Source: Smithella sp. PtaU1.Bin162
Lineage (GTDB): Bacteria; Desulfobacterota; Syntrophia; Syntrophales; Smithellaceae
Direction of reading: 5' to 3'
Length of the DNA stretch: 35,704 nucleotides
Assembly: GCA_002068015.1 (NCBI GenBank)
Contig: MVRV01000067.1
Coordinates: forward strand, 1 to 35,704
Part shown: in pieces, positions 16,943 through 35,704 of the stretch
Numbering within the stretch: position 1 is the stretch's first letter
How the letters are laid out: each line of letters begins with the position of its first letter
Translations under genes and position numbers: made by a program
The notes under the pieces: generated by a model
Told to the model about the DNA's origin: nothing
Database searches by the model: none
What the model saw: only the letters and a program-made list of their open reading frames with translations

Positions 16943-18244
16943 CTACGCTTCCTTACTTTCCGCAAACTCCCGATCCGACTGATCGGGGAGAATCAGCAGC
17001 ACTTCTTTTACGGATTTCTGGTCGGCATTTTCAATAATAAAATTAATCCCGCCGTAATTAGTTTTTTCTTTCCGCCTGGGAACTCTTCCCAATTTATACA
17101 TCAGAAATCCACCTATGGTTTCATAATCACCCGCCGGCAATTTTATCAGCAACAACTGCTCCAGATCAGCAATCCCCATGCGTCCGCTGACCAGATATTT
17201 CCCGGCGGCGATTTTCTTGTATAATTTTTCGCCGGCAGTATATTCGTCATTGATGCTGCCCACGATCTCTTCCCGGATATCTTCACCGGTTACAATGCCT
17301 ATGGCCCCGCCGTACTCATCAACAACAACCGCCATGTGTTCGCGCTTTCTTTGCATATCAATCAAAAGCTCACCGGCTTTTTTTGTTTCCGGCACAAAAA
17401 ACACATTCGTCTGCAAGCAGGAGGCGATAGTTTCCTGATCGGACGGCAAAGATTCATCTTTACGCGTATGGAGAAACTCCATCAGATCGAAATAATGCAA
17501 GATACCTACTATATTGAAAACTTCACCCGAATAAACCGGTATCCGCAGATATTTTTTAGCGCTCACAATCCGGGCGGCATCGCTTAGGGAAGTAGTAACA
17601 GGCAGTGTAGTGAGCGCCGAGATAGGAACCATTATTTTACTCGCCGTAATTTCCGAAAAATCAAAAACCCGGCTGACCATTTCTCTTTCCGTTTTCAGAA
17701 TATCGCTGCCTTCAGTCTTTGCTCTGAGAATATATTTTAATCCCTCCTTGGTAATATAAGAAGACTTCTTTACTTTCCGGCCGGTTGAAAATCTTACCGT
17801 CCAGCGGGATACCGCCGCTATGGCTGAGGCTGCCGGATAAAAAATCACGGAGGACACACGAATAAAAAACGCCACTTTCATGGCCATTGTTTCGGCGTAC
17901 TCCTGAAAAACACTGCGGTAAATGATCATGGCGAGCAATGTCGGCAATATTATGAAAAAGGATATTTTTTCACCGTGCACCGGGCCGAATAAATCAATAA
18001 AAACACCGGTCGCCAGAGTGGAACCGGTGACAATGGCCAGGTTTGTGCCGATAATCGTCGTTGAAATAAACCACTCCGGACGTTCTAAAAGTTTCAGGGC
18101 CTGCCCGGCACTAAAAGAACCACGACGGGCAAAGAACCGAATCTTATTGATGTCGGAAGAGATTAGAGCAATCTCTCCGCCGGAATAAAGTGCTTCCAGA
18201 AGAAAACAGATTAAAATAACGGCTATTGTTAAATAGGTATTCAT
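16943..18244 (-). CDS. CNNM/CorC (HlyC) membrane protein with CBS pair, divergent paralogue
   Basis: 433-residue inner-membrane protein: an N-terminal CNNM domain with about four hydrophobic segments (1-150), two CBS domains (~200-330, with RIPVYSG and AVVVDEYGGAIGIVT) and a C-terminal CorC_HlyC domain (GDYETIGGFLMYKLGRVP). Family members are implicated in Mg2+/Co2+ or Na+ transport. The membrane-domain motif usually read as VGExxPKT is degenerate here (YRSVFQEYAET), unlike in the neighbouring paralogue, so ion transport may be altered. The ATG overlaps the stop of the upstream paralogue by four bases (ATGA), implying coupled translation and possibly a heteromeric complex. Confidence 0.9.
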   Translation of the reverse strand: MNTYLTIAVILICFLLEALYSGGEIALISSDINKIRFFARRGSFSAGQALKLLERPEWFISTTIIGTNLAIVTGSTLATGVFIDLFGPVHGEKISFFIILPTLLAMIIYRSVFQEYAETMAMKVAFFIRVSSVIFYPAASAIAAVSRWTVRFSTGRKVKKSSYITKEGLKYILRAKTEGSDILKTEREMVSRVFDFSEITASKIMVPISALTTLPVTTSLSDAARIVSAKKYLRIPVYSGEVFNIVGILHYFDLMEFLHTRKDESLPSDQETIASCLQTNVFFVPETKKAGELLIDMQRKREHMAVVVDEYGGAIGIVTGEDIREEIVGSINDEYTAGEKLYKKIAAGKYLVSGRMGIADLEQLLLIKLPAGDYETIGGFLMYKLGRVPRRKEKTNYGGINFIIENADQKSVKEVLLILPDQSDREFAESKEA

Positions 18245-19509
18245 GTATTTTTATCCGGATTGACATCCCAGTGTGCTTTGATTTTCAGGATTCTCGTCCT
18301 GCTTACATTTTCCACCCGGAAGATAAGCCCTTCATATTTATATTCATCGCCCGGAGACGGCAGATTACCGAATAAATGCAGAACAAAGCCGCCGATGGTA
18401 TCGAATTCCTCAATCGGCAATTGCGTCTGCATTAAAACATTAAACTGTTCCAGCGGCAATTTCCCGGGCACAATAATGGTATTTTCATCCATCCTTTCAC
18501 AACCATTCCGCAAATCGTTGCACTCCGCCAGCTCCTCTTCAAACAAATGTTCCAGAATATCTTCCAGTGTAACAAGCCCCGATACTCCGCCGTATTCATC
18601 AACTACGACCGCCAATTGTGTACGATTTTCCTGAAAATCATGCAAAAGCCCGTTGATGGTTTTGCCTTCCGGAACAAAATAAGGTTTTTTGAGCAGTTTT
18701 TCGATGCTGTCGGTTTTCTTTTCCTGCAGTGTGGCATTGAGCAAATCGCGGGCGTAAAGAATTCCGACTATATCATCGCGATCGCCGGCATAAACGGGTA
18801 TCCGTTCATAACGCACCTTGATTACCTCGGCGGCAACTTCTTCCACCGACATCGTGACAGGAAGGCAATACATGTCCACCCGGGGCGCCATAATATCAGT
18901 GACCGGCTTATCGCCCAATTCAAAAATTCTGTTGATCAATTCTTTTTGCGCCTCGTCAACAACTCCTTCCCGGCTTCCCGTATCTACGAGTGTTTTGAAC
19001 TCTCCCTCCATTACCGTATCATCAACATTCCCGGAATCATTCCGGCTGTAACGGCTGAGAATAAAATCTGAGATCTTTTCGAACCCCATAACAAAAGGGT
19101 ATTCCAGACGGGAAAAAGCTGTCAGCAGGGGGGATGCGGCGGAAGATATAGTCAGGGGATAGGTAACCCCGAATGTTTTGGGAATAGATTCACCGACTAT
19201 CAACAAGACAACGGTAGTAAAAGCTATGGCTATCCACTGACCGTCCGCCCCGAAAAGGCCGATAAAAAAAGATGCCGCCAGAATGGAGATACAGATATTA
19301 ACGGCTTCATTGCCGACTATAATGGTAATTAAAAGACGCCGCCGGTTTTCGAGGAGATTTTCAACAAAGCGCAAAAAAGGATAACCATCCAATTTCATCT
19401 TGTGGATATGCAATTCCGTAAGTGAAAATAAAGCGGCTTCGGCAGAAGAAAAAAAGCCGGAGAATAAAAAAAGCACTAAAATTATGGCTATTTGTAATGA
19501 CGGATCCAA
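18241..19509 (-). CDS. CNNM/CorC (HlyC) membrane protein with CBS pair
   Basis: About 422-residue protein with the same order of domains as its downstream neighbour: CNNM membrane domain (FLFSGFFSSAEAALFSLTELH at the start, VGESIPKTFGVTYPL conserved), two CBS domains (DIMAPRVDMYCLPV, ERIPVYAGDRDDIVGILYARDLL, AVVVDEYGGVSGLVTLEDI) and a CorC_HlyC domain (FDTIGGFVLHLFGNLPSPGD). There is no ATG near the N-terminus. I prefer TTG 19509, giving MDPSLQIAIILVLFLFSG; another TTG at 19626 would add 39 residues but would place the start within the putative purD promoter. The two genes are a tandem duplication. Confidence 0.88.
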   Translation of the reverse strand: MDPSLQIAIILVLFLFSGFFSSAEAALFSLTELHIHKMKLDGYPFLRFVENLLENRRRLLITIIVGNEAVNICISILAASFFIGLFGADGQWIAIAFTTVVLLIVGESIPKTFGVTYPLTISSAASPLLTAFSRLEYPFVMGFEKISDFILSRYSRNDSGNVDDTVMEGEFKTLVDTGSREGVVDEAQKELINRIFELGDKPVTDIMAPRVDMYCLPVTMSVEEVAAEVIKVRYERIPVYAGDRDDIVGILYARDLLNATLQEKKTDSIEKLLKKPYFVPEGKTINGLLHDFQENRTQLAVVVDEYGGVSGLVTLEDILEHLFEEELAECNDLRNGCERMDENTIIVPGKLPLEQFNVLMQTQLPIEEFDTIGGFVLHLFGNLPSPGDEYKYEGLIFRVENVSRTRILKIKAHWDVNPDKNT

Positions 19510-19611
19510 TATTGTAATAATCCCGGATAATATTTTTTTATAATTTAGCAGATTGGCGCTGAAAAAGACAAATATTTTATAGAAAAGAGCCAAAAGAGCA
19601 TTCCTAATTAA

Positions 19612-19640
19612 TTGACTTGTAATCAATTTTCCGTTATTTA
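19612..19640 (+). promoter_or_regulatory. Candidate promoter of purD
   Basis: TTGACT (19612-19617), a 17-nt spacer and TATTTA (19635-19640) could serve as -35 and -10 boxes, with transcription starting ~25 nt before ATG 19671. The -10 box matches only three of six positions, so this is weak. Confidence 0.3.
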
Positions 19641-27153: not shown

Positions 27154-27696
27154 ATGAAAGCAGAAAACTCCGGACGGAAAAACATTTTGGTCAGCGTGGT
27201 CATGGGCAGTGACTCCGATTTGCCTGTCATGACTGAAGCCGTAAAAATTCTGGAAGAATTCGGCGTTCCCCATGAATTATTTCTAACATCCGCTCACCGC
27301 ACACCGGAACGCACAACAAAATTTGCTAAAGAGGCGGCCAAACGCGGCGTAAAAATAATTATTGTCGGAGCGGGCGCAGCAGCACACCTGGCCGGCGTTA
27401 TCGCTGCACAGACTACATTACCGGTAATCGGTGTACCGATTGATGCCACCGCCATACACGGCCTTGATGCTTTACTTTCCACGGTCCAGATGCCCGGCGG
27501 CATTCCTGTTGCCACCATGGCCATAGGTAAAGCCGGCGCCAAAAACGCCGCCCTCTATGCCGTCCGCACCCTGGCGCTCGAAGATAAAAAAATCAGCGCC
27601 CGGCTTACCGCCTATATTAAAAAAATGGCGCGCGACGTGGAAAAAAAGCAAAAAAACCTGACTGTTCCGGAAAATACCGCATGCCGGAAATCCTGA
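27154..27696 (+). CDS. purE: N5-carboxyaminoimidazole ribonucleotide mutase (class I PurE)
   Basis: 180-residue enzyme of purine synthesis that rearranges N5-CAIR to CAIR. The signature VVMGSDSDLPVM near residue 16, TSAHRTPERT near 45 and GAGAAAHLAGVIAAQTTLPVIGVPI near 73 define class I PurE. The C-terminal tail (AYIKKMARDVEKKQ) is somewhat longer than usual. No purK gene is in the window. The 3' end overlaps the next gene by 16 nt in a different frame. Confidence 0.97.
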   Translation: MKAENSGRKNILVSVVMGSDSDLPVMTEAVKILEEFGVPHELFLTSAHRTPERTTKFAKEAAKRGVKIIIVGAGAAAHLAGVIAAQTTLPVIGVPIDATAIHGLDALLSTVQMPGGIPVATMAIGKAGAKNAALYAVRTLALEDKKISARLTAYIKKMARDVEKKQKNLTVPENTACRKS

Positions 27697-28319
27697 AAGC
27701 CGATAAAAATCTTTCCGCAGAAACCGTTTTATCCCGCGCCGCGGAAATTATAATTGCCGGCGGAGTCGTCGCCTATCCCACGGAAACATTTTATGGACTC
27801 GGCGCCGATGCCACAAACGAAAAAGCCATCCAAAAGATTTACGCCATCAAAGGAAGGAATTTCGCGAGCCCTATCTCCGTTATCATCGATTCCCGGGAAA
27901 ATCTTTACCCGCTCGTAGAAGAAGTGCCCGCCTGTGCCTTAAAACTGATCGAATCTTTCTGGCCGGGACCGCTCACCATCATTTTTAAAGCCTCTGCTCA
28001 CATACCGCAGATACTCACTGCCGGAAGCGGCAAAATCGGCATAAGAATTTCCAGTCACACGGGCGCAAGGACGCTTGCCCAAAAGATCAACCGGCCGCTT
28101 ACCGCCACGAGCGCCAACATATCCGCCTCTCCGGAGTGCTCCGCGGCGGAAGAAGTCGCCCGGCAACTCGGCAATAAAGTTGATGCCATCCTCGATCTGG
28201 GAAATACCAGGGGAGGCAAAGGTTCCACAATAATTGACGTCACCCCGAAGCCGCCCCAAATTCTGCGGGCCGGAGTTATTGACCGCCTTACACTCGGTAA
28301 ACTTATTGATTTTCAGTAA
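27681..28319 (+). CDS. tsaC: L-threonylcarbamoyladenylate synthase (TsaC/Sua5/YrdC family)
   Basis: 212-residue enzyme that forms threonylcarbamoyl-AMP from threonine, bicarbonate and ATP for the t6A37 modification of ANN-decoding tRNAs. The conserved segments are GGVVAYPTETFYGLGADA near residue 27, the KxR motif in IKGRNFASPISVII near 56, and TATSANISASPE near 140, which marks the substrate pocket. The protein is short (YrdC domain only, no Sua5 extension). It overlaps purE by 16 nt, indicating an operon by transcription if not by function. Confidence 0.95.
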   Translation: MPEILKADKNLSAETVLSRAAEIIIAGGVVAYPTETFYGLGADATNEKAIQKIYAIKGRNFASPISVIIDSRENLYPLVEEVPACALKLIESFWPGPLTIIFKASAHIPQILTAGSGKIGIRISSHTGARTLAQKINRPLTATSANISASPECSAAEEVARQLGNKVDAILDLGNTRGGKGSTIIDVTPKPPQILRAGVIDRLTLGKLIDFQ

Positions 28320-28517: not shown

Positions 28518-30113
28518 ATGGTAAAAAGGGCTTTAATAATCGTTGTTTCTCTTATGTCCATAATTTTTAATGCTACGGTTTTCAGTCAAACGACCAATAA
28601 CCCGGTCATCAACGAAGGCATTAAACAATATCAGGCGGAAAATTACGAAGAAGCCATTGAAATATTGACCGCAGCAAGAAAAACCGACTCAACATCAGCA
28701 ATGGCGGCTTTTGTTTTGGGAATGGCCTATAAACAAATCAACGACTTGCCTAATGCCGAAAAAAATCTGCACGATGCCGTAGACTTAACCCCCCCAATCA
28801 AAGAGGCATATGTAGAGCTCATTGATGTCTTGTATAAACAGGATAAAATTACCGACGCCAAAAAATATCTGGTGACGGCGGAGCAGAAAGATATTATCCC
28901 GTCGAAAATAGCATTTCTTAAAGGGTTGATTTTACTTAAAGAAGATAATAATAAGGCCGCCATTGCCGCTTTTGAAAAGTCAAAGAAGCTCGACCCCAAA
29001 TTTTCACAGGCCGCCGATCTGCAAATTGCCATAGCCTACATGAAGGATGGACTACTCACCAAAGCCAAGGAAAGCCTCAACTTATCCATCACCCAAAATC
29101 CCCTGTCCGACATGGCCGGTTTTGCCAGGCAATATCAGGATGTCATCGACAGTGCCATACAATCACACCGGCCCTTGCGTTTAACCATCACTGCTTTGGG
29201 CGGTTACGATACAAATATAATTTCCAGGCCGAAAGATGACGCTGTTGCTGCAGGTCTTGACGACGAGAAAGGCACTGTGCTGCAATCGTCTGTCCGGCTG
29301 GACTTTACACCGCGCATTGAAGGTCCCTGGCTTTTTAACGCATCATATACGGCGGCTTCCGTGTTAAATTCAAAGCATACCCATTCTCATGATTCGCTGG
29401 CCAATTCCATTTCCATGTCGCCGGGCTATAATTTCGGCCGCGCCGCCCTCAATTTCAACATGAGTTATACGAATTATCTTCTGCGCACCGATCCGGATGT
29501 GAGCCCGGCTGTGGATTCTTCTCCTAATTACAGAAAATATATGGACTATTACACCTTTGGTCCGGCTCTGAGGTTTTTAGCCAATGGAACAAATGTCATT
29601 GAATTAGGAATCGGCATGGAAAAGAAAGATTATGACAGTCAAAAATTCACGGGACAAAATAATATAAGAAACGCCATAGGTCCAAAAGCATATCTGAGCT
29701 GGATCTGGTTATATATGCCAAACGGCTTTTTCAACCTGCGTGCCGAATATAATGAAGAGCATACCGACGGAATAAACTGGGAAAACAAGGGAAACCGCTT
29801 GACCGCCAACTTAAGCATCCCTCTTCTTTCCGAAGAAAAAGCAGCAACATTCGGCCTGCTCAGCCTCCAGTTGACGGGCGGTATTTATATTCAGAATTAT
29901 TTATACGATCAAACTTATCAGGAAACGGATGGCTCCTCTGTTACCGACAAGAGAAAAGATATTACTTACAGCGGATCCATAGGGTTAAACTGGGCATTTT
30001 GGAAACATGCAAGCCTCATCTGCCAATATAGCACAACCGGTGCATACTCCAACATTCCCGTTAACAAATACGGACGTGATTTATATATGGCCGGTCTGGA
30101 GTTCAGGTATTAA
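28518..30113 (+). CDS. Exported TPR plus outer-membrane beta-barrel protein
   Basis: 531-residue protein with a signal peptide (MVKRALIIVVSLMSIIFN..., cleavage near VFSQ), TPR-type helical repeats at ~33-200 (AENYEEAIEILTAARKTD, AFVLGMAYKQINDLPNAEKNL, KAAIAAFEKSKKLDPKFSQA), then from ~212 a region of alternating strands rich in Tyr/Asn/Gly ending in ...LYMAGLEFRY, with the terminal aromatic residue typical of Omp85-assembled barrels. The TPR-then-barrel layout resembles DUF560/Slam surface-lipoprotein modifiers, but I cannot confirm homology. GGAGG lies 8 nt before the ATG. The giant FecR-domain gene follows after 96 nt in the same orientation; export or display of that protein is a reasonable hypothesis. 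Confidence 0.8.
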   Translation: MVKRALIIVVSLMSIIFNATVFSQTTNNPVINEGIKQYQAENYEEAIEILTAARKTDSTSAMAAFVLGMAYKQINDLPNAEKNLHDAVDLTPPIKEAYVELIDVLYKQDKITDAKKYLVTAEQKDIIPSKIAFLKGLILLKEDNNKAAIAAFEKSKKLDPKFSQAADLQIAIAYMKDGLLTKAKESLNLSITQNPLSDMAGFARQYQDVIDSAIQSHRPLRLTITALGGYDTNIISRPKDDAVAAGLDDEKGTVLQSSVRLDFTPRIEGPWLFNASYTAASVLNSKHTHSHDSLANSISMSPGYNFGRAALNFNMSYTNYLLRTDPDVSPAVDSSPNYRKYMDYYTFGPALRFLANGTNVIELGIGMEKKDYDSQKFTGQNNIRNAIGPKAYLSWIWLYMPNGFFNLRAEYNEEHTDGINWENKGNRLTANLSIPLLSEEKAATFGLLSLQLTGGIYIQNYLYDQTYQETDGSSVTDKRKDITYSGSIGLNWAFWKHASLICQYSTTGAYSNIPVNKYGRDLYMAGLEFRY

Positions 30114-30209
30114 TCGACTTTTTAAGTCGGGCCGGAAATAAACCGATAATTATTGTAGATTTGAAATTTCCGTATTAACTGTTTTACAAGATCAATCAAG
30201 GAGTCCTTT

Positions 30210-33200
30210 ATGAAAACAAAACTCGCATCCCTTATGGCTGTCCTGGCATTTTTTCTGGTCTTTGCCGCCGGCGTTCAGGCGGCACCGGCAGGAAAAGCGA
30301 CAAATATCGACGGACGGGTGGATATTACCCCACCCGGTCAGTCCGCAAAGGCATTGGCCATCGGCGACACGGTGAATGTGGGTGATGTCGTTCGCACGAA
30401 AAGCGCCTCGAAATGCGAAATAACCTGGGCGGACGGCAGCATTGCCCGCCTGGCGGAAAACAGCCGCCTGAAAGTTACGGAATTCATGCTGACTAAGGAA
30501 AATCGATCCGTCAGTTTTAATCTCTTCCGGGGCAAGATGCACAACATCGTATCATCGATTACGTCACTTTTCGGCGCCAAAGGCTCATCAAAATACGAGG
30601 TACACACGCCCACCTCCGTCTGCGGCGTACGCGGCACCAAGTTTTTCGTCTATCACCACGAAGGTGTTTCCGGAGCTTTATTCACTGAAGGAAAAGGTTA
30701 TGGGTACAGCAAAGGCAGGCCCGATGCCGTTAAATCAATTACTCCCGGCCGGATGATGATCGTCACGAGCGCCAATAAACCTCCCCGGCTGCGCGATGCT
30801 TCCCAGGGCGAAGTGAATAAATTTTTAACGGATACGACTTTGTCGGAGAAAAAGAAAGATTCGAAAAAAGAAGGCGAAGACAAGGGTAAAAACGACGGAG
30901 GATCGTCAGGCTCCGGTTCGGGCGGCGGCGGTTCAACCTCCACATCAGGAAGTTCTTCCGGTTCGGAAAGCGGTGATTCGTCATCAGGCGGCACCAGCGG
31001 TTCCGGCTCCGGCTCGGGTGATTCATCCGGTGGAACAACAGGTGGTCCTGCGTCCGGCGATCCATCCGGCGGAACAACACCGGGTGGTTTCACCCTCGTC
31101 GAGGGCCCCACAGAGACAATACTAACCGGTACGACTACACCCAGCCCGACGCCAACTGTAATAGTCCCGGTGACGCCAACAGAAGAAGGCAGCACAACAA
31201 CAAGCACAACGTTTTCGCAAACGGTCGCCCTCGATGCCCTTTCGGGAACACTGGACGGCTCTATCGATGATACGACCAATACAGGCACTCTCAGTCTCTC
31301 CGGAACAGGCCAGGCTTCCACCTCCGCTTCATCGTTAACCGGAACCATGAGCGACGGCAGCACCTATGATGCCTACCTCACGGGAAACCCCGGTTCCTGG
31401 TCGGGGCTGTTTGCGGGGCTCACCTACAAGGACGGCAGCTCTTCGTTTTTGGAGGCCGGCCTCTCCGATGCGAATTATACGGACAGCGGAAGTTCCAGTT
31501 CTCTTTCCGCAAGCGGCAGTATTACCCGCGGCACGGCCTACACCGTCAGCGGATCACTTTTCGATATATATTACAACACATTACCCGTACCGTCATATTT
31601 AATCGCCCAGAACTACGGTGAAAGCACAACCTATGACGGCCAGGGCTATAACACAACCGCGGGTGGACTCATCGCCGTCTGGGCACTCACCAGAACGGAC
31701 GGAGTGTCGCCCTTTCCGGAAACAGCGGAAACGCTGCCTTTCCACTACTATGAATATTGCTCATACACCCCGTTTGCCTATCTTTATACAAATAATCTTG
31801 TCCGCACGGACGATGCCAACGGGCACTTCGAGGTTAAAGGCGATATCGAATTCATGAACGACCGGTATTATGGTCTCTTCAGCATGAACACCAAAGCGAC
31901 CCGCACCAGTGAATACGGTGAGGGATATTATTACTATAATGAGATCGGTGTCGGCAAATATGTTCTTGATCCGCTAAAATATCACGGCTATTGGGGAGTA
32001 AGTGGTCCCGGCAGTTTATATTACAACAACAGCGGCGTACTTAGTTTAGCCGGTCATGAAGAAGCCATATTCGGCGGTCTTACTCAGGCGCCCTGGGCGG
32101 GCAGTACCGATTTCAAGGCCATCGGCGAGTATTACTATAATTCGGACTTAGGTGATTATACTTATTACCTGTGGAACACCGCCGTTGACGGGTATGATCC
32201 ATCCTATACAGACCCTGCCTCGGGAGGCTATTTCGACGGCAACACCGCGGGCATCTGGAAAAGCAGTAAGAAGGGATCAATCCGGGCCATTTATGTCACC
32301 CCCGCCTCCGGAGGCGTCTCCACGGCCGGCATCCTGACGAGCGACGACATTACCGTAGTCAGATATTTAACTGACGAAGGAAGCGCTTCATATCCCGACA
32401 TGTGGAAAGCCACGGGTACTTTAGGCCCGGTGAGCGGCATCACCTATACGGGAGATCCGTCAGGCTGGAGTATTGATTCCGGAACATCCAAAACCATGAA
32501 GCTTAAGGGAACATTCACCGGCCCGACCGGCTCCATTACCGGAACCGGCTTCCTTTACACACAGTTTCTGATTGACAATTATACAAGCCCCGGGTGGGGA
32601 ATTTATAATCTGGGGCTCTCGGGCGCCAGCGGCGCCAATACCTTTTCCGGAAAACCGACAAGCGGGGAAGATGCCTGGTCGGCGCAACTGGGAGGAGAAG
32701 GTCAATTCGGTTATGGCGGAACCGCTGCAACCGGCTACTGGCTGGCCACCATTTCCGACGGCCTCTGGACGGGCGACGGACAGATTACCGGTAATATGAG
32801 CGGCACCTACCTCACACGAACCTACAAGGGAACTATTGTTCCCAGCCCCTTCTACGGCGTGAACATGAGCTCGGGCAACTGGATCGGCGAAAGCATTGGA
32901 ATTTATGAGGGCGCTCCGCTTAAGTTTGTAAGCTACATCTCCCCCTCCATCTGGTATTACAACGGCACATGGCATGATGAAACAAGTTATTCTCCTTATT
33001 ATGAGCTGTCCGGTTTTATGGGCGGCACAGACTCGCTCTGGAATTCAGCGTCAGTGAACACAACCCTCATGGGAAGCGCTGAAACAAGCGGGACGCTTTC
33101 CAGCACAAGACATATCTTCAATTACGAAACTTACAGTTACAATTATAAAAATTCCACCTATACCACTTACGACAGTTCCCCCGGATCATTCTTCGCCCTG

Positions 33201-35704
33201 TATGGCGGTATCATCAGTAACAGCGAAATAGAAGCCATTATGACCGGGCTTTACATCGATCCCAGCGGCAATGCCGGATTCCTGAAAGGCAACTTCGGCG
33301 GCACCAGTTATACGGATATCGCCATGTGGGAAGCTTCCGGATCGTTGTATAAAACCGATCAGATGCAGGCGGCAATCGGTATTTCCCCGGAAAATCTTTA
33401 CAGCAAGTTGCGCCAGTCTAACGATTTCGGAGGAAGAGTCTCCATCACCAACTATCTACAGGGTTGGATGGGGTCGTACCTTGACGACGACGTCAGTTTT
33501 TACAACAAAGTTTACTCGATTTATAATGGAACTACATCCTATCCCTGGGGTATCTGGCAGGCAACCGCAGCAGGCGATTATGAGACCGTTTCAGCATCAT
33601 GGACAGCCAAGGCGGGCGGCAGCGGCTCTTTCGGCGCATATAATTCAGGAGGCAGCTTATTAGATGACTCTGGTTACTGGATAGCCGATATCAACGGGTC
33701 GCAATGGAGCAGCAATAAACTTGCAGGTACTGTGAGCGGCAAGTTTATTACAAAAAACAAGATCGGTAATGCCACCTTCGCCTCCGGAACGGGGATGAAC
33801 GGCGATATCCTGGGCACTTATACCAGCGGCACCTGGCAGGCGGTGGCAATGGGCACGTGGAGCGGTACAGATCTTTCATTCAGCACCGCTACGGACTGGG
33901 GAAGCTCCGGTTACTTTGATACTAATTCACACACCATGGTTTACGATGTACCATGGGGAACCTCTCAGGAATACGTAAAAGGTATCATAGGCAGCACGGC
34001 ATCGTTTATCGGTGCCTCCGCTCCTCTTTACGGTATCGGAACATACGCAGTAAACACAAATCCGATGTTTGCAATGGATCTTTCCAAAAATCGTAATTCC
34101 GCTTTCGCTAATACCGACACAATCAGCCTCTGGTTTGGTGGAACAAAAACCTCCACTACTTTTAAAGGAAAGTTGATGGGGCTTTACGCCAACTGGAACG
34201 GTACCAACTATGACGTAGGCTATGTTACCAGCGGATCGGTCACCGATTCGCCGGTAACGGGAAACCTCTATTCCGGTATCGGCATGTGGGAAATAACGGC
34301 GGGAAGTCTGACATCTTCATCCAAAGGCACTCTCACTACAGGGGAAAACATCACACCGGCGATTACCGTTGAAACAACTAATCCACAAATTGGTTCCATC
34401 GCCGGCACTCAGGGCATCACCGGCACCTCCAACAGTTTCGATATGTATTTTTCCCAGACTAACAGCGACTGGGGTGTCTGGCGGGCGGAAAGCGGCGGAA
34501 CTTATACGGAAACACCTGCGTCCGGCTGGTACGGAGCAACGGGAGAAAAAGATGAGACAAACTACAACTACTCTATTTCCCATCTTACCGGCACTGCCTG
34601 GGCGGATGGAGAAATATCGGGAACGTCAAGCGGACGCTTCCTGACTATGGACGGATGGGGCAGATCAGCAGGCGATGTCCTGGGTGTTTATGACTCGTCT
34701 GCTAAGACATGGCAGACGCTGGCACTGGGCAAAAGAGAAAAAACCGAGACACTGGCTTTTTCGAGCGTCCTCACCGGCAATATCTATCAGGTTGTGGCAG
34801 GCACCGTCTACACCATGGAATACCAGCGGCCTTTCTGGGATACATATTCCTCCTCCAATAACTTTGATCCCCTGCGGTATGAAACGGTTTATTTTAAATA
34901 CGGTTCTCCCTACCAGACCTATAATCCCACTACCACAATCGGATTTGAGTGGACCGAGGAAGACGGCGGCAGCTACACCTATAAAGACGAATACCATTAC
35001 TATCCAACCGGCAAATGGCTCAAAATCGCAAAAGGTCAGGGTATTACCCGTACAGCCGGTTCGGGAACCACTCCCGAATCATTGAATTTGTCCGATCCTT
35101 CTACCGAAACGACACTCGGTTTTACGGGAACAGTTGTGGCCTATCCGGCAACTCCTTTTGCAAGTTACAACAATTATGCCGCCACCTACAGCACAGTATG
35201 GCACACCAATGCTCTCGTTCAAAACGGTGCCTTCACCGGCCTTCTGGGTGGCCTGAACAATCAGTCTCTATGGTCATCGAGTTCATCAGCCAAGACCAAT
35301 CTGATTCTGATGGGCAGCCACGCTGCTTATAGCGGTTCGCAGCTTTTCGGAACATCCATGTCTTACGACGGCAGCAGCACGAGCAACGGATCCTACTTCG
35401 GTGCTCTCACCGGCATTATTCTGGATACCGATCCCGATGCCACCTATCGCGAAAATCCGCTCACAGGCCTGATTGTCGGCCTCTATATTGATCCCACCGG
35501 AAAGGCCGGTGTTCTGAAGGGGAACTTCACCGGCACCTCCTACACGGGAATCAACATGTGGGAATCAACCGACACGGAAGGAGCTGCAACGCTTTATCGT
35601 GACGGTATTCTCAATAATAAATCAACCTCCGTTACAGCGGCAACTCTGGCCTCCAATATCTTTACCGGTGACATCGGCCCCGGAATTAATTCCGCTCTTT
35701 ACGG
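30210..35704 (+). CDS. Giant exported FecR-domain repetitive surface protein (3' end outside window)
   Basis: Open without a stop from ATG 30210 to the window end, at least 1831 residues. AAGGAG lies six nt before the ATG. Signal peptide MKTKLASLMAVLAFFLVFAAGVQA, cleavage after residue 24. Residues ~28-165 form a FecR domain (AIGDTVNVGDVVRTKSAS, ITWADGSIARLAENS, YEVHTPTSVCGVRGTKF). Then a Lys/Glu/Asp-rich segment (~213-230), a Gly/Ser-rich linker (~230-290), a Thr/Pro stretch (to ~335), and a very long Gly/Thr/Ser/Tyr/Trp-rich beta-type region built of degenerate ~300-residue modules. A 29-residue block, GLYIDPxGxAGxLKGNFxGT..., recurs at residues 1013 and 1757. FecR domains in such proteins resemble those of periplasmic or surface proteins; no ligand or secretion signal is identifiable in the part seen. 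Adhesin or S-layer-like role is speculation. Confidence 0.85.
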   Translation, partial: MKTKLASLMAVLAFFLVFAAGVQAAPAGKATNIDGRVDITPPGQSAKALAIGDTVNVGDVVRTKSASKCEITWADGSIARLAENSRLKVTEFMLTKENRSVSFNLFRGKMHNIVSSITSLFGAKGSSKYEVHTPTSVCGVRGTKFFVYHHEGVSGALFTEGKGYGYSKGRPDAVKSITPGRMMIVTSANKPPRLRDASQGEVNKFLTDTTLSEKKKDSKKEGEDKGKNDGGSSGSGSGGGGSTSTSGSSSGSESGDSSSGGTSGSGSGSGDSSGGTTGGPASGDPSGGTTPGGFTLVEGPTETILTGTTTPSPTPTVIVPVTPTEEGSTTTSTTFSQTVALDALSGTLDGSIDDTTNTGTLSLSGTGQASTSASSLTGTMSDGSTYDAYLTGNPGSWSGLFAGLTYKDGSSSFLEAGLSDANYTDSGSSSSLSASGSITRGTAYTVSGSLFDIYYNTLPVPSYLIAQNYGESTTYDGQGYNTTAGGLIAVWALTRTDGVSPFPETAETLPFHYYEYCSYTPFAYLYTNNLVRTDDANGHFEVKGDIEFMNDRYYGLFSMNTKATRTSEYGEGYYYYNEIGVGKYVLDPLKYHGYWGVSGPGSLYYNNSGVLSLAGHEEAIFGGLTQAPWAGSTDFKAIGEYYYNSDLGDYTYYLWNTAVDGYDPSYTDPASGGYFDGNTAGIWKSSKKGSIRAIYVTPASGGVSTAGILTSDDITVVRYLTDEGSASYPDMWKATGTLGPVSGITYTGDPSGWSIDSGTSKTMKLKGTFTGPTGSITGTGFLYTQFLIDNYTSPGWGIYNLGLSGASGANTFSGKPTSGEDAWSAQLGGEGQFGYGGTAATGYWLATISDGLWTGDGQITGNMSGTYLTRTYKGTIVPSPFYGVNMSSGNWIGESIGIYEGAPLKFVSYISPSIWYYNGTWHDETSYSPYYELSGFMGGTDSLWNSASVNTTLMGSAETSGTLSSTRHIFNYETYSYNYKNSTYTTYDSSPGSFFALYGGIISNSEIEAIMTGLYIDPSGNAGFLKGNFGGTSYTDIAMWEASGSLYKTDQMQAAIGISPENLYSKLRQSNDFGGRVSITNYLQGWMGSYLDDDVSFYNKVYSIYNGTTSYPWGIWQATAAGDYETVSASWTAKAGGSGSFGAYNSGGSLLDDSGYWIADINGSQWSSNKLAGTVSGKFITKNKIGNATFASGTGMNGDILGTYTSGTWQAVAMGTWSGTDLSFSTATDWGSSGYFDTNSHTMVYDVPWGTSQEYVKGIIGSTASFIGASAPLYGIGTYAVNTNPMFAMDLSKNRNSAFANTDTISLWFGGTKTSTTFKGKLMGLYANWNGTNYDVGYVTSGSVTDSPVTGNLYSGIGMWEITAGSLTSSSKGTLTTGENITPAITVETTNPQIGSIAGTQGITGTSNSFDMYFSQTNSDWGVWRAESGGTYTETPASGWYGATGEKDETNYNYSISHLTGTAWADGEISGTSSGRFLTMDGWGRSAGDVLGVYDSSAKTWQTLALGKREKTETLAFSSVLTGNIYQVVAGTVYTMEYQRPFWDTYSSSNNFDPLRYETVYFKYGSPYQTYNPTTTIGFEWTEEDGGSYTYKDEYHYYPTGKWLKIAKGQGITRTAGSGTTPESLNLSDPSTETTLGFTGTVVAYPATPFASYNNYAATYSTVWHTNALVQNGAFTGLLGGLNNQSLWSSSSSAKTNLILMGSHAAYSGSQLFGTSMSYDGSSTSNGSYFGALTGIILDTDPDATYRENPLTGLIVGLYIDPTGKAGVLKGNFTGTSYTGINMWESTDTEGAATLYRDGILNNKSTSVTAATLASNIFTGDIGPGINSALY
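33246..33332 (+). repeat. Internal protein-coding repeat, first copy
   Basis: Encodes a 29-residue block beginning GLYIDPSGNAGFLKGNF and ending IAMWE (residues 1013-1041 of the FecR-domain protein). Twenty-three of 29 residues match the copy at 35478-35564. Confidence 0.75.
35478..35564 (+). repeat. Internal protein-coding repeat, second copy
   Basis: Encodes GLYIDPTGKAGVLKGNF...INMWE (residues 1757-1785), 744 residues after the first copy. Preceding residues LTGLIVG here and IMTG in the first copy also correspond. Confidence 0.75.

Follow-up and report, generated by a model that had tools for sequence, protein, structure and literature searches.

A conserved pair of TPR-barrel and giant FecR-domain genes as a candidate type XI-like secretion module in Smithella

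The locus and its two genes

The question raised by this locus was why a gene for an outer-membrane barrel with tetratricopeptide repeats (TPRs) lies directly before a gene for a very large FecR-domain protein, and whether the pair serves surface display. The window, which is the whole stretch of DNA analysed (35,704 nucleotides), was the entire contig C67 of the draft genome of Smithella sp. PtaU1.Bin162. The initial annotation had placed an exported TPR-barrel gene 96 nt before a gene for a FecR protein of more than 1831 residues, and both open reading frames were found as claimed. Gene 1 occupied 28518-30113 on the plus strand, encoded 531 aa and was a real reading frame at the position first described. 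Gene 2 followed on the same strand after the gap of 96 nt (30210 to 35702) with 1831 aa, and was still open at the end of the window. Since the window was a whole contig, gene 2 had been truncated by the assembly. When its 3' part was used as a query against the same genome, the end of contig C39 was returned with 24 identical residues. The two contig ends shared an exact DNA overlap of 72 nt (35633-35704 of the window, C39 on its minus strand), and the open frame of C39 ran for 756 aa up to a stop codon (L057:7402-9672, minus strand). The initial annotation had left the gene without its stop codon, and the join supplied it and gave a protein of 2,563 aa.

The join was supported by a relative, G034, in which one uncut gene of 2,656 aa was present with the flanks of both contigs. 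Its upstream flank carried PurE/Sua5-like genes as in C67, and downstream, as in C39, came a gene for a zinc-ribbon protein and one resembling phosphoribosyltransferases. In the window the housekeeping genes that define this slot lay at 27154-28319 on the plus strand (PurE-like, 27154-27696; Sua5-like, 27681-28319; named by reading the sequence). They recurred around the barrel-FecR pair of G034 and around a different pair in G001 (L142), described below; the named relatives of the locus were MAGs of Smithellaceae/Syntrophales. Elsewhere in the window, a tandem pair of CNNM/CorC-type transporter genes was located at 16943-19626. A further FecR match was observed on contig C148 (L049), which is assigned to the same genome, among genes that resembled a different organism and were unlike Desulfobacterota; this contig is possible contamination (the contamination of the genome is stated as 2%), and it was set aside.

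In the product of gene 1, a signal peptide was followed by a TPR domain and then by a beta-barrel of 14 predicted strands. Pfam recognised only TPRs in it (TPR_2, TPR_16 and others). The AlphaFold2 model, made with 13 relatives, showed TPR helices at residues 29-216 (28602-29165, plus strand), a putative periplasmic solenoid, and 14 strands at residues 220-531 (29175-30110, plus strand), the predicted outer-membrane barrel, with a mean pLDDT of 83.4 and a pTM of 0.56. The best structural matches of the barrel were CymA (Z 21.5) and OmpG (Z 19.6), both of which are 14-stranded, and the TPR part resembled many TPR proteins. Solved Slam structures were absent among the structural matches listed for the barrel, which excludes nothing. 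The barrel on which the initial annotation depended was therefore present in the model, with the 14 strands reported for the DUF560 barrel (PMC8406197, PMC5449769).

The product of gene 2, of which the window holds 1831 of about 2,563 aa (30210-35702, plus strand), was read from its N-terminus; all features named here lie on the plus strand. A signal peptide (30210-30281) ended in ...GVQA-AP without a lipobox cysteine, and by its sequence was probably of the signal peptidase I type. A lipobox-like pattern was found in just 2 of 103 FecR partners, unlike lipidated Slam substrates. The FecR domain that the initial annotation had placed at the N-terminus was confirmed by Pfam (PF04773, residues 59-156, 30384-30677) with 45.3 bits against a cut-off of 24, and by an alignment of 20 partners. 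The FecR domain directly follows the signal peptide and leaves no space for a cytoplasmic domain, so a classical anti-sigma or transducer FecR, in which a cytoplasmic N-terminal domain and a transmembrane helix precede FecR, was rejected. The proposed Gly/Ser hinge also held, as a Gly/Ser/Thr/Pro-rich linker at residues 213-330 (30846-31199; 26% G, 22% S and 17% T). A search for the LapA retention module (NF033682) at the N-terminus gave E 4e-4 and 20.5 bits, below the NCBIfam cut-off of 50.

A whole-length self-BLAST of the giant detected no repeats. Modules were found by an iterated HMM, with reversed and shuffled sequences as controls, and this detected 152 domains (E<1e-3) across 36 family members and 0 in the control copies. 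Beta modules were located at residues 730-900 (32397-32909, i-E 5e-24), 1037-1221 (33318-33872, i-E 6e-37) and 1357-1514 (34278-34751, i-E 2.5e-34), with a weaker one at 1638-1787 (35121-35570, i-E 7e-5) and the start of a further one at 1781-1963 (35550-35704, running on into C39, i-E 1.2e-34). Read in order, the joined protein thus opened with the signal peptide and the FecR domain, continued through the Gly/Ser linker into about 8 diverged beta modules, and closed with a conserved C-terminal domain predicted to be a barrel. The module count rose with protein length (r = 0.92 among 36 partners), and the module chain ranged from about 600 to 2,900 aa by species. The modules bore out the repetitive beta-rich region of the initial annotation, although divergence between the repeats is high.

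The last 330 residues of 37 gene 2 partners could be aligned, and this C-terminal domain (CTD) was modelled. The final domain was 8-stranded (strands at 196-330 of the model; pLDDT 86, pTM 0.86), and a similar module preceded it. The C-terminus of gene 2 is therefore predicted to be an 8-stranded barrel, which is the design of known type XI cargo. However, TbpB_B_D (PF01298) gave no Pfam match in the CTD of the window family (first member), and HHalign of the CTD against TbpB barrels gave a probability of 1.5%, that is, no detectable sequence kinship, which was counted against the relationship. A PDB sequence search with the CTD profile found no match, and Foldseek of the CTD against the PDB found nothing at E<=0.001. 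VIA-align gave a best Z of 5.9 (OmpW), with 4.5 for the TbpB C-lobe and 4.4 for HphA, values too weak to claim a relationship. These results meant that the window CTD shared topology alone with type XI cargo. An autotransporter was also considered for gene 2 and rejected, because its C-terminus is not an autotransporter barrel.

Relation to the Slam superfamily and conservation of the pair

The window barrel showed no match to SlipAM (PF04575) at E<=0.1, and this was counted against a Slam reading. The relationship was visible through its homologues. TPR_Slam was matched by 8 of 13 family members (best E 9e-6), and barrel homologues exceeded the SlipAM cut-off of 22 bits (G277 with 45.1 bits, G207 with 44.5, G153 with 41.6, and others; window-family homologues scored 28-45 bits). 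In the phylum survey, these SlipAM-positive homologues matched the window family at E of about 1e-110 to 1e-134. HHalign of the window family to local SlipAM proteins gave E 1.3e-8, a value partly owed to the TPRs. In a FastTree of the barrel regions the SlipAM-positive homologues fell inside the window clade, with several nodes weakly supported, and the clade stood apart from all other SlipAM proteins but one. Judged by these intermediate homologues, gene 1 is a remote subfamily member of the SlipAM/DUF560 (Slam, T11SS OMP) superfamily. Slam proper was rejected as a name for it, and we call it a remote member, because the window protein itself has no PF04575 match.

Barrel homologues were gathered by an alignment query without reference to FecR; the single window protein as a query for related loci gave no match, so an alignment was required. 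Pairing was counted for the 54 homologues whose C-terminus was intact and whose contig ran on for at least 500 nt downstream. A FecR gene lay within 400 nt downstream on the same strand in 48 of them (median gap 46 nt) and within 1.6 kb in 4 more. The conserved adjacency that the initial annotation had proposed to check, as opposed to a barrel occurring without FecR, was thus observed for 52 of 54 barrels. The two remaining loci (L075 and L076) were both cut by contig ends; the contig of L075 stopped after a regulator of the type found between the barrel and FecR genes in its kin, and L076 had a gene with a CTD-type ending just upstream of the barrel. The loci came from MAGs of Desulfobacterota, Nitrospirota and Omnitrophota. 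Among 395 genomes sampled from the phylum, the barrel was present in 54 and the CTD in 22, and all 22 were among those 54 (hypergeometric P 1e-21, ignoring relatedness). CTD proteins were sometimes distant from the barrel gene (L166, L167).

The partner was not always a giant. In L070, L126, L108 and L113 the barrel stood beside a short FecR protein (about 250-350 aa) that had a proline-rich tail but lacked a CTD, so the C-terminal barrel is not required for pairing. Such short partners are unaccounted for if the barrel is a mere exporter of CTD cargo. In these short forms the FecR domain itself may be the bound partner of the barrel, or it may have a sensing role. Variation in the partner was also seen in other loci. 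One partner had two tandem FecR-like domains by HMM (L159:3683-5497), and the sequences of Omnitrophota partners (e.g. L116, L117) pointed to the same tandem arrangement. In L148:3670-8598, one barrel gene was followed by two FecR proteins in a row (619 and 881 aa) and then a CHASE2 cyclase.

A related arrangement was found in the same genomic slot of a congener. There, in G001 (same genus), a different pair filled the place bounded by the Sua5-like gene and the zinc-ribbon/phosphoribosyltransferase genes. Its OMP of 476 aa matched SlipAM with 30.8 bits (cut-off 22) and TPR_Slam with 40.6 (cut-off 35.2), and its partner was a 588-aa FecR protein with a TbpB-like end (GSFFGPNAENMGA; TbpB_B_D 18.8 bits, below the cut-off of 26). 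Across the phylum, a FecR gene was directly downstream at 25 of 30 SlipAM loci, one by a weak match, and upstream at at least 2 further ones. Seven SlipAM-linked FecR proteins were picked for a TbpB-like ending, and among these TbpB_B_D was above the cut-off at the C-terminus in 5 and just below it in 2. Type XI cargo has been defined by a C-terminal TbpB-type barrel beside the OMP (PMC12282271), and such FecR proteins qualify as type XI cargo by that definition. The same SlipAM-FecR arrangement is present, in more diverged form, in the window pair. At one SlipAM locus (L203:7117-8832), the adjacent FecR protein ended in a long Asp-Thr/Asp-Val repeat and not in a barrel domain.

Neighbouring genes were informative about function. 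In Desulfobacterales, a LuxR-family gene was located between the barrel and FecR genes (L074:3189-4502, L082:11562-12735, L085:5726-6373). In L074 and L082 it gave a VpsT-like receiver match below the cut-off, and a PilZ gene was present in the same two loci. VpsT and PilZ are parts of c-di-GMP and biofilm control, and these neighbours therefore favoured an adhesin or matrix role; gene 2 is probably an adhesin. In another genome of the genus (G003, L040:2-6224), a two-partner secretion pair lay directly upstream of the barrel-FecR pair. Its members were a ShlB/FhaC-type transporter and a TPS exoprotein of 1301 aa, and a separate FecR-like gene (254 aa) came after them, so that FecR adjoined another surface secretion system too.

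Proposed mechanism and alternatives

We consider it likely that the two genes form a secretion module of the type XI (Slam/DUF560) kind, with gene 2 as its dedicated non-lipidated cargo. The gene pairing, the domain order, the predicted folds and the remote homology to Slam-family proteins were direct results of the analysis. The Slam-type surface-display pair suggested in the initial annotation gained support from the FecR pairing, the 14-strand model, the overlap with the SlipAM family and the 8-stranded cargo C-terminus. By analogy with known systems we infer the export of gene 2 and its surface location. Gene 1 would be the outer-membrane translocon, with its TPRs in the periplasm and the 14-stranded barrel in the membrane. 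Judging from its signal peptide, gene 2 would cross the inner membrane by Sec, and by analogy with TbpB-type cargo the TPR/barrel protein would recognise its C-terminal 8-stranded domain. The beta modules would then be carried outside as a chain and fold there, and the chain may serve as an adhesin or matrix protein on the surface. In the weakest step, the N-terminal FecR domain would remain periplasmic and act as a stop or an anchor, and the Gly/Ser linker would span the membrane. Such a periplasmic anchor is plausible by analogy, since a biofilm operon encodes periplasmic proteins that combine FecR with LysM (PMC5192318).

The constant partner of the barrel is FecR and not the CTD, and this would also suit an envelope-sensing module, in which barrel and periplasmic FecR form a receptor pair reporting the outer membrane to an inner-membrane cyclase, and the giant extension is a later elaboration. 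Short FecR partners were often beside CHASE2-guanylate cyclase genes (L155, L108), as were the longer partners of L148, and the BiofilmReg operon provides a known case of FecR linked to CHASE2 (PMC5192318). However, no cyclase or sigma factor was seen near the window pair, and sensing leaves unexplained both the C-terminal 8-stranded barrel and the TbpB_B_D barrels on SlipAM-linked FecR proteins. We therefore regard sensing as unlikely.

The giant could also be a surface adhesin that travels by another route (type I or autotransporter-like), with the barrel merely assembling or anchoring it. Its size and modular build resemble LapA-type adhesins, in line with the sub-threshold retention module match at its N-terminus (20.5 bits, cut-off 50). 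Its signal peptide looks cleavable, and known type I substrates have no such peptide. The C-terminus, as noted, is not an autotransporter barrel, and the adjacent OMP belongs to the Slam superfamily across the family, which makes another route somewhat less probable still than sensing. Least probable, and by a wide measure improbable, is that gene 1 is a polysaccharide export porin of the BcsC, PgaA or PelB type with the FecR protein as an envelope accessory. The TPR plus barrel build fits such a porin, and the top Foldseek match of gene 1 was BcsC (9b8a, E 1.9e-11), but over the full length of the model this match was poor (TMq 0.36, rmsd 12.5). PgaA is described as 16-stranded (PMC8406197), against the 14 strands modelled here. 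No glycan synthase genes were noticed around the pair in the loci examined, and the constant neighbour of the barrel is an exported protein.

Comparison with known systems

Published work on type XI secretion centres on Proteobacteria and on cargo with a TbpB-like or lipoprotein-C barrel, and most DUF560 clusters are without known cargo (PMC8406197, PMC12282271). FecR was not mentioned in the T11SS papers searched, and a wider literature search, subscription papers and preprints excepted, found no paper that has DUF560 together with FecR. Cargo of the FecR-bearing giant kind was thus absent from the papers searched, and the pair is kept across several phyla. In Desulfobacterota, genes of the Slam superfamily usually had a FecR-domain protein as neighbour, and some of these proteins carried a TbpB barrel above the cut-off. 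This yields a prediction of cargo that can be tested for a large and uncharacterised share of the type XI system, and it hints at the role of giant beta proteins in syntrophic and sulfate-reducing bacteria. More tentatively, there may be a multi-phylum type XI class for giant adhesins, whose cargo would be non-lipidated chains of 8-stranded beta-barrels held to the cell by a periplasmic N-terminal FecR anchor. If true, this would be a third display mode for type XI cargo, besides lipid anchoring and release.

The initial annotation had called the fusion of FecR to a giant repeat region unusual. An exported FecR has precedents in periplasmic LysM-FecR proteins (PMC5192318) and is not odd in itself; the unusual feature is its place at the N-terminal end of Slam-type cargo. 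In the BiofilmReg operon, the LysM-FecR proteins (COG4254) share with gene 2 the exported FecR and the link to biofilm and CHASE2. They have LysM instead of beta modules, and no barrel partner or giant repeat region is described for them. LapA/RTX adhesins are likewise very large modular surface proteins with an N-terminal domain that is potentially periplasmic. They differ in a type I signal instead of a signal peptide and a TolC-like pore instead of a TPR-barrel partner, and the retention-module match of gene 2 is below the cut-off.

The T11SS OMPs (Slam/NilB/HrpB; DUF560, SlipAM PF04575) share with gene 1 the signal peptide, the periplasmic TPR domain, the 14-stranded barrel (predicted here), the position beside putative cargo and a remote homology through intermediate family members. 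In contrast to them, the window protein scores no SlipAM match, and its family is also present in MAGs of Desulfobacterota, Nitrospirota and Omnitrophota, whereas the T11SS literature searched discusses Proteobacteria. Type XI cargo (TbpB, LbpB, fHbp, hemophilins, NilC, Pls-like) differs from gene 2, which has an N-terminal FecR domain, many tandem beta modules (up to about 2,900 aa between species) and a CTD that is not detectably TbpB-like by sequence. Unlike TbpB, gene 2 is not lipidated, and neither are the hemophilins. Like gene 2, such cargo is encoded beside the OMP and has a C-terminal 8-stranded barrel (predicted here) after a variable N-terminal part.
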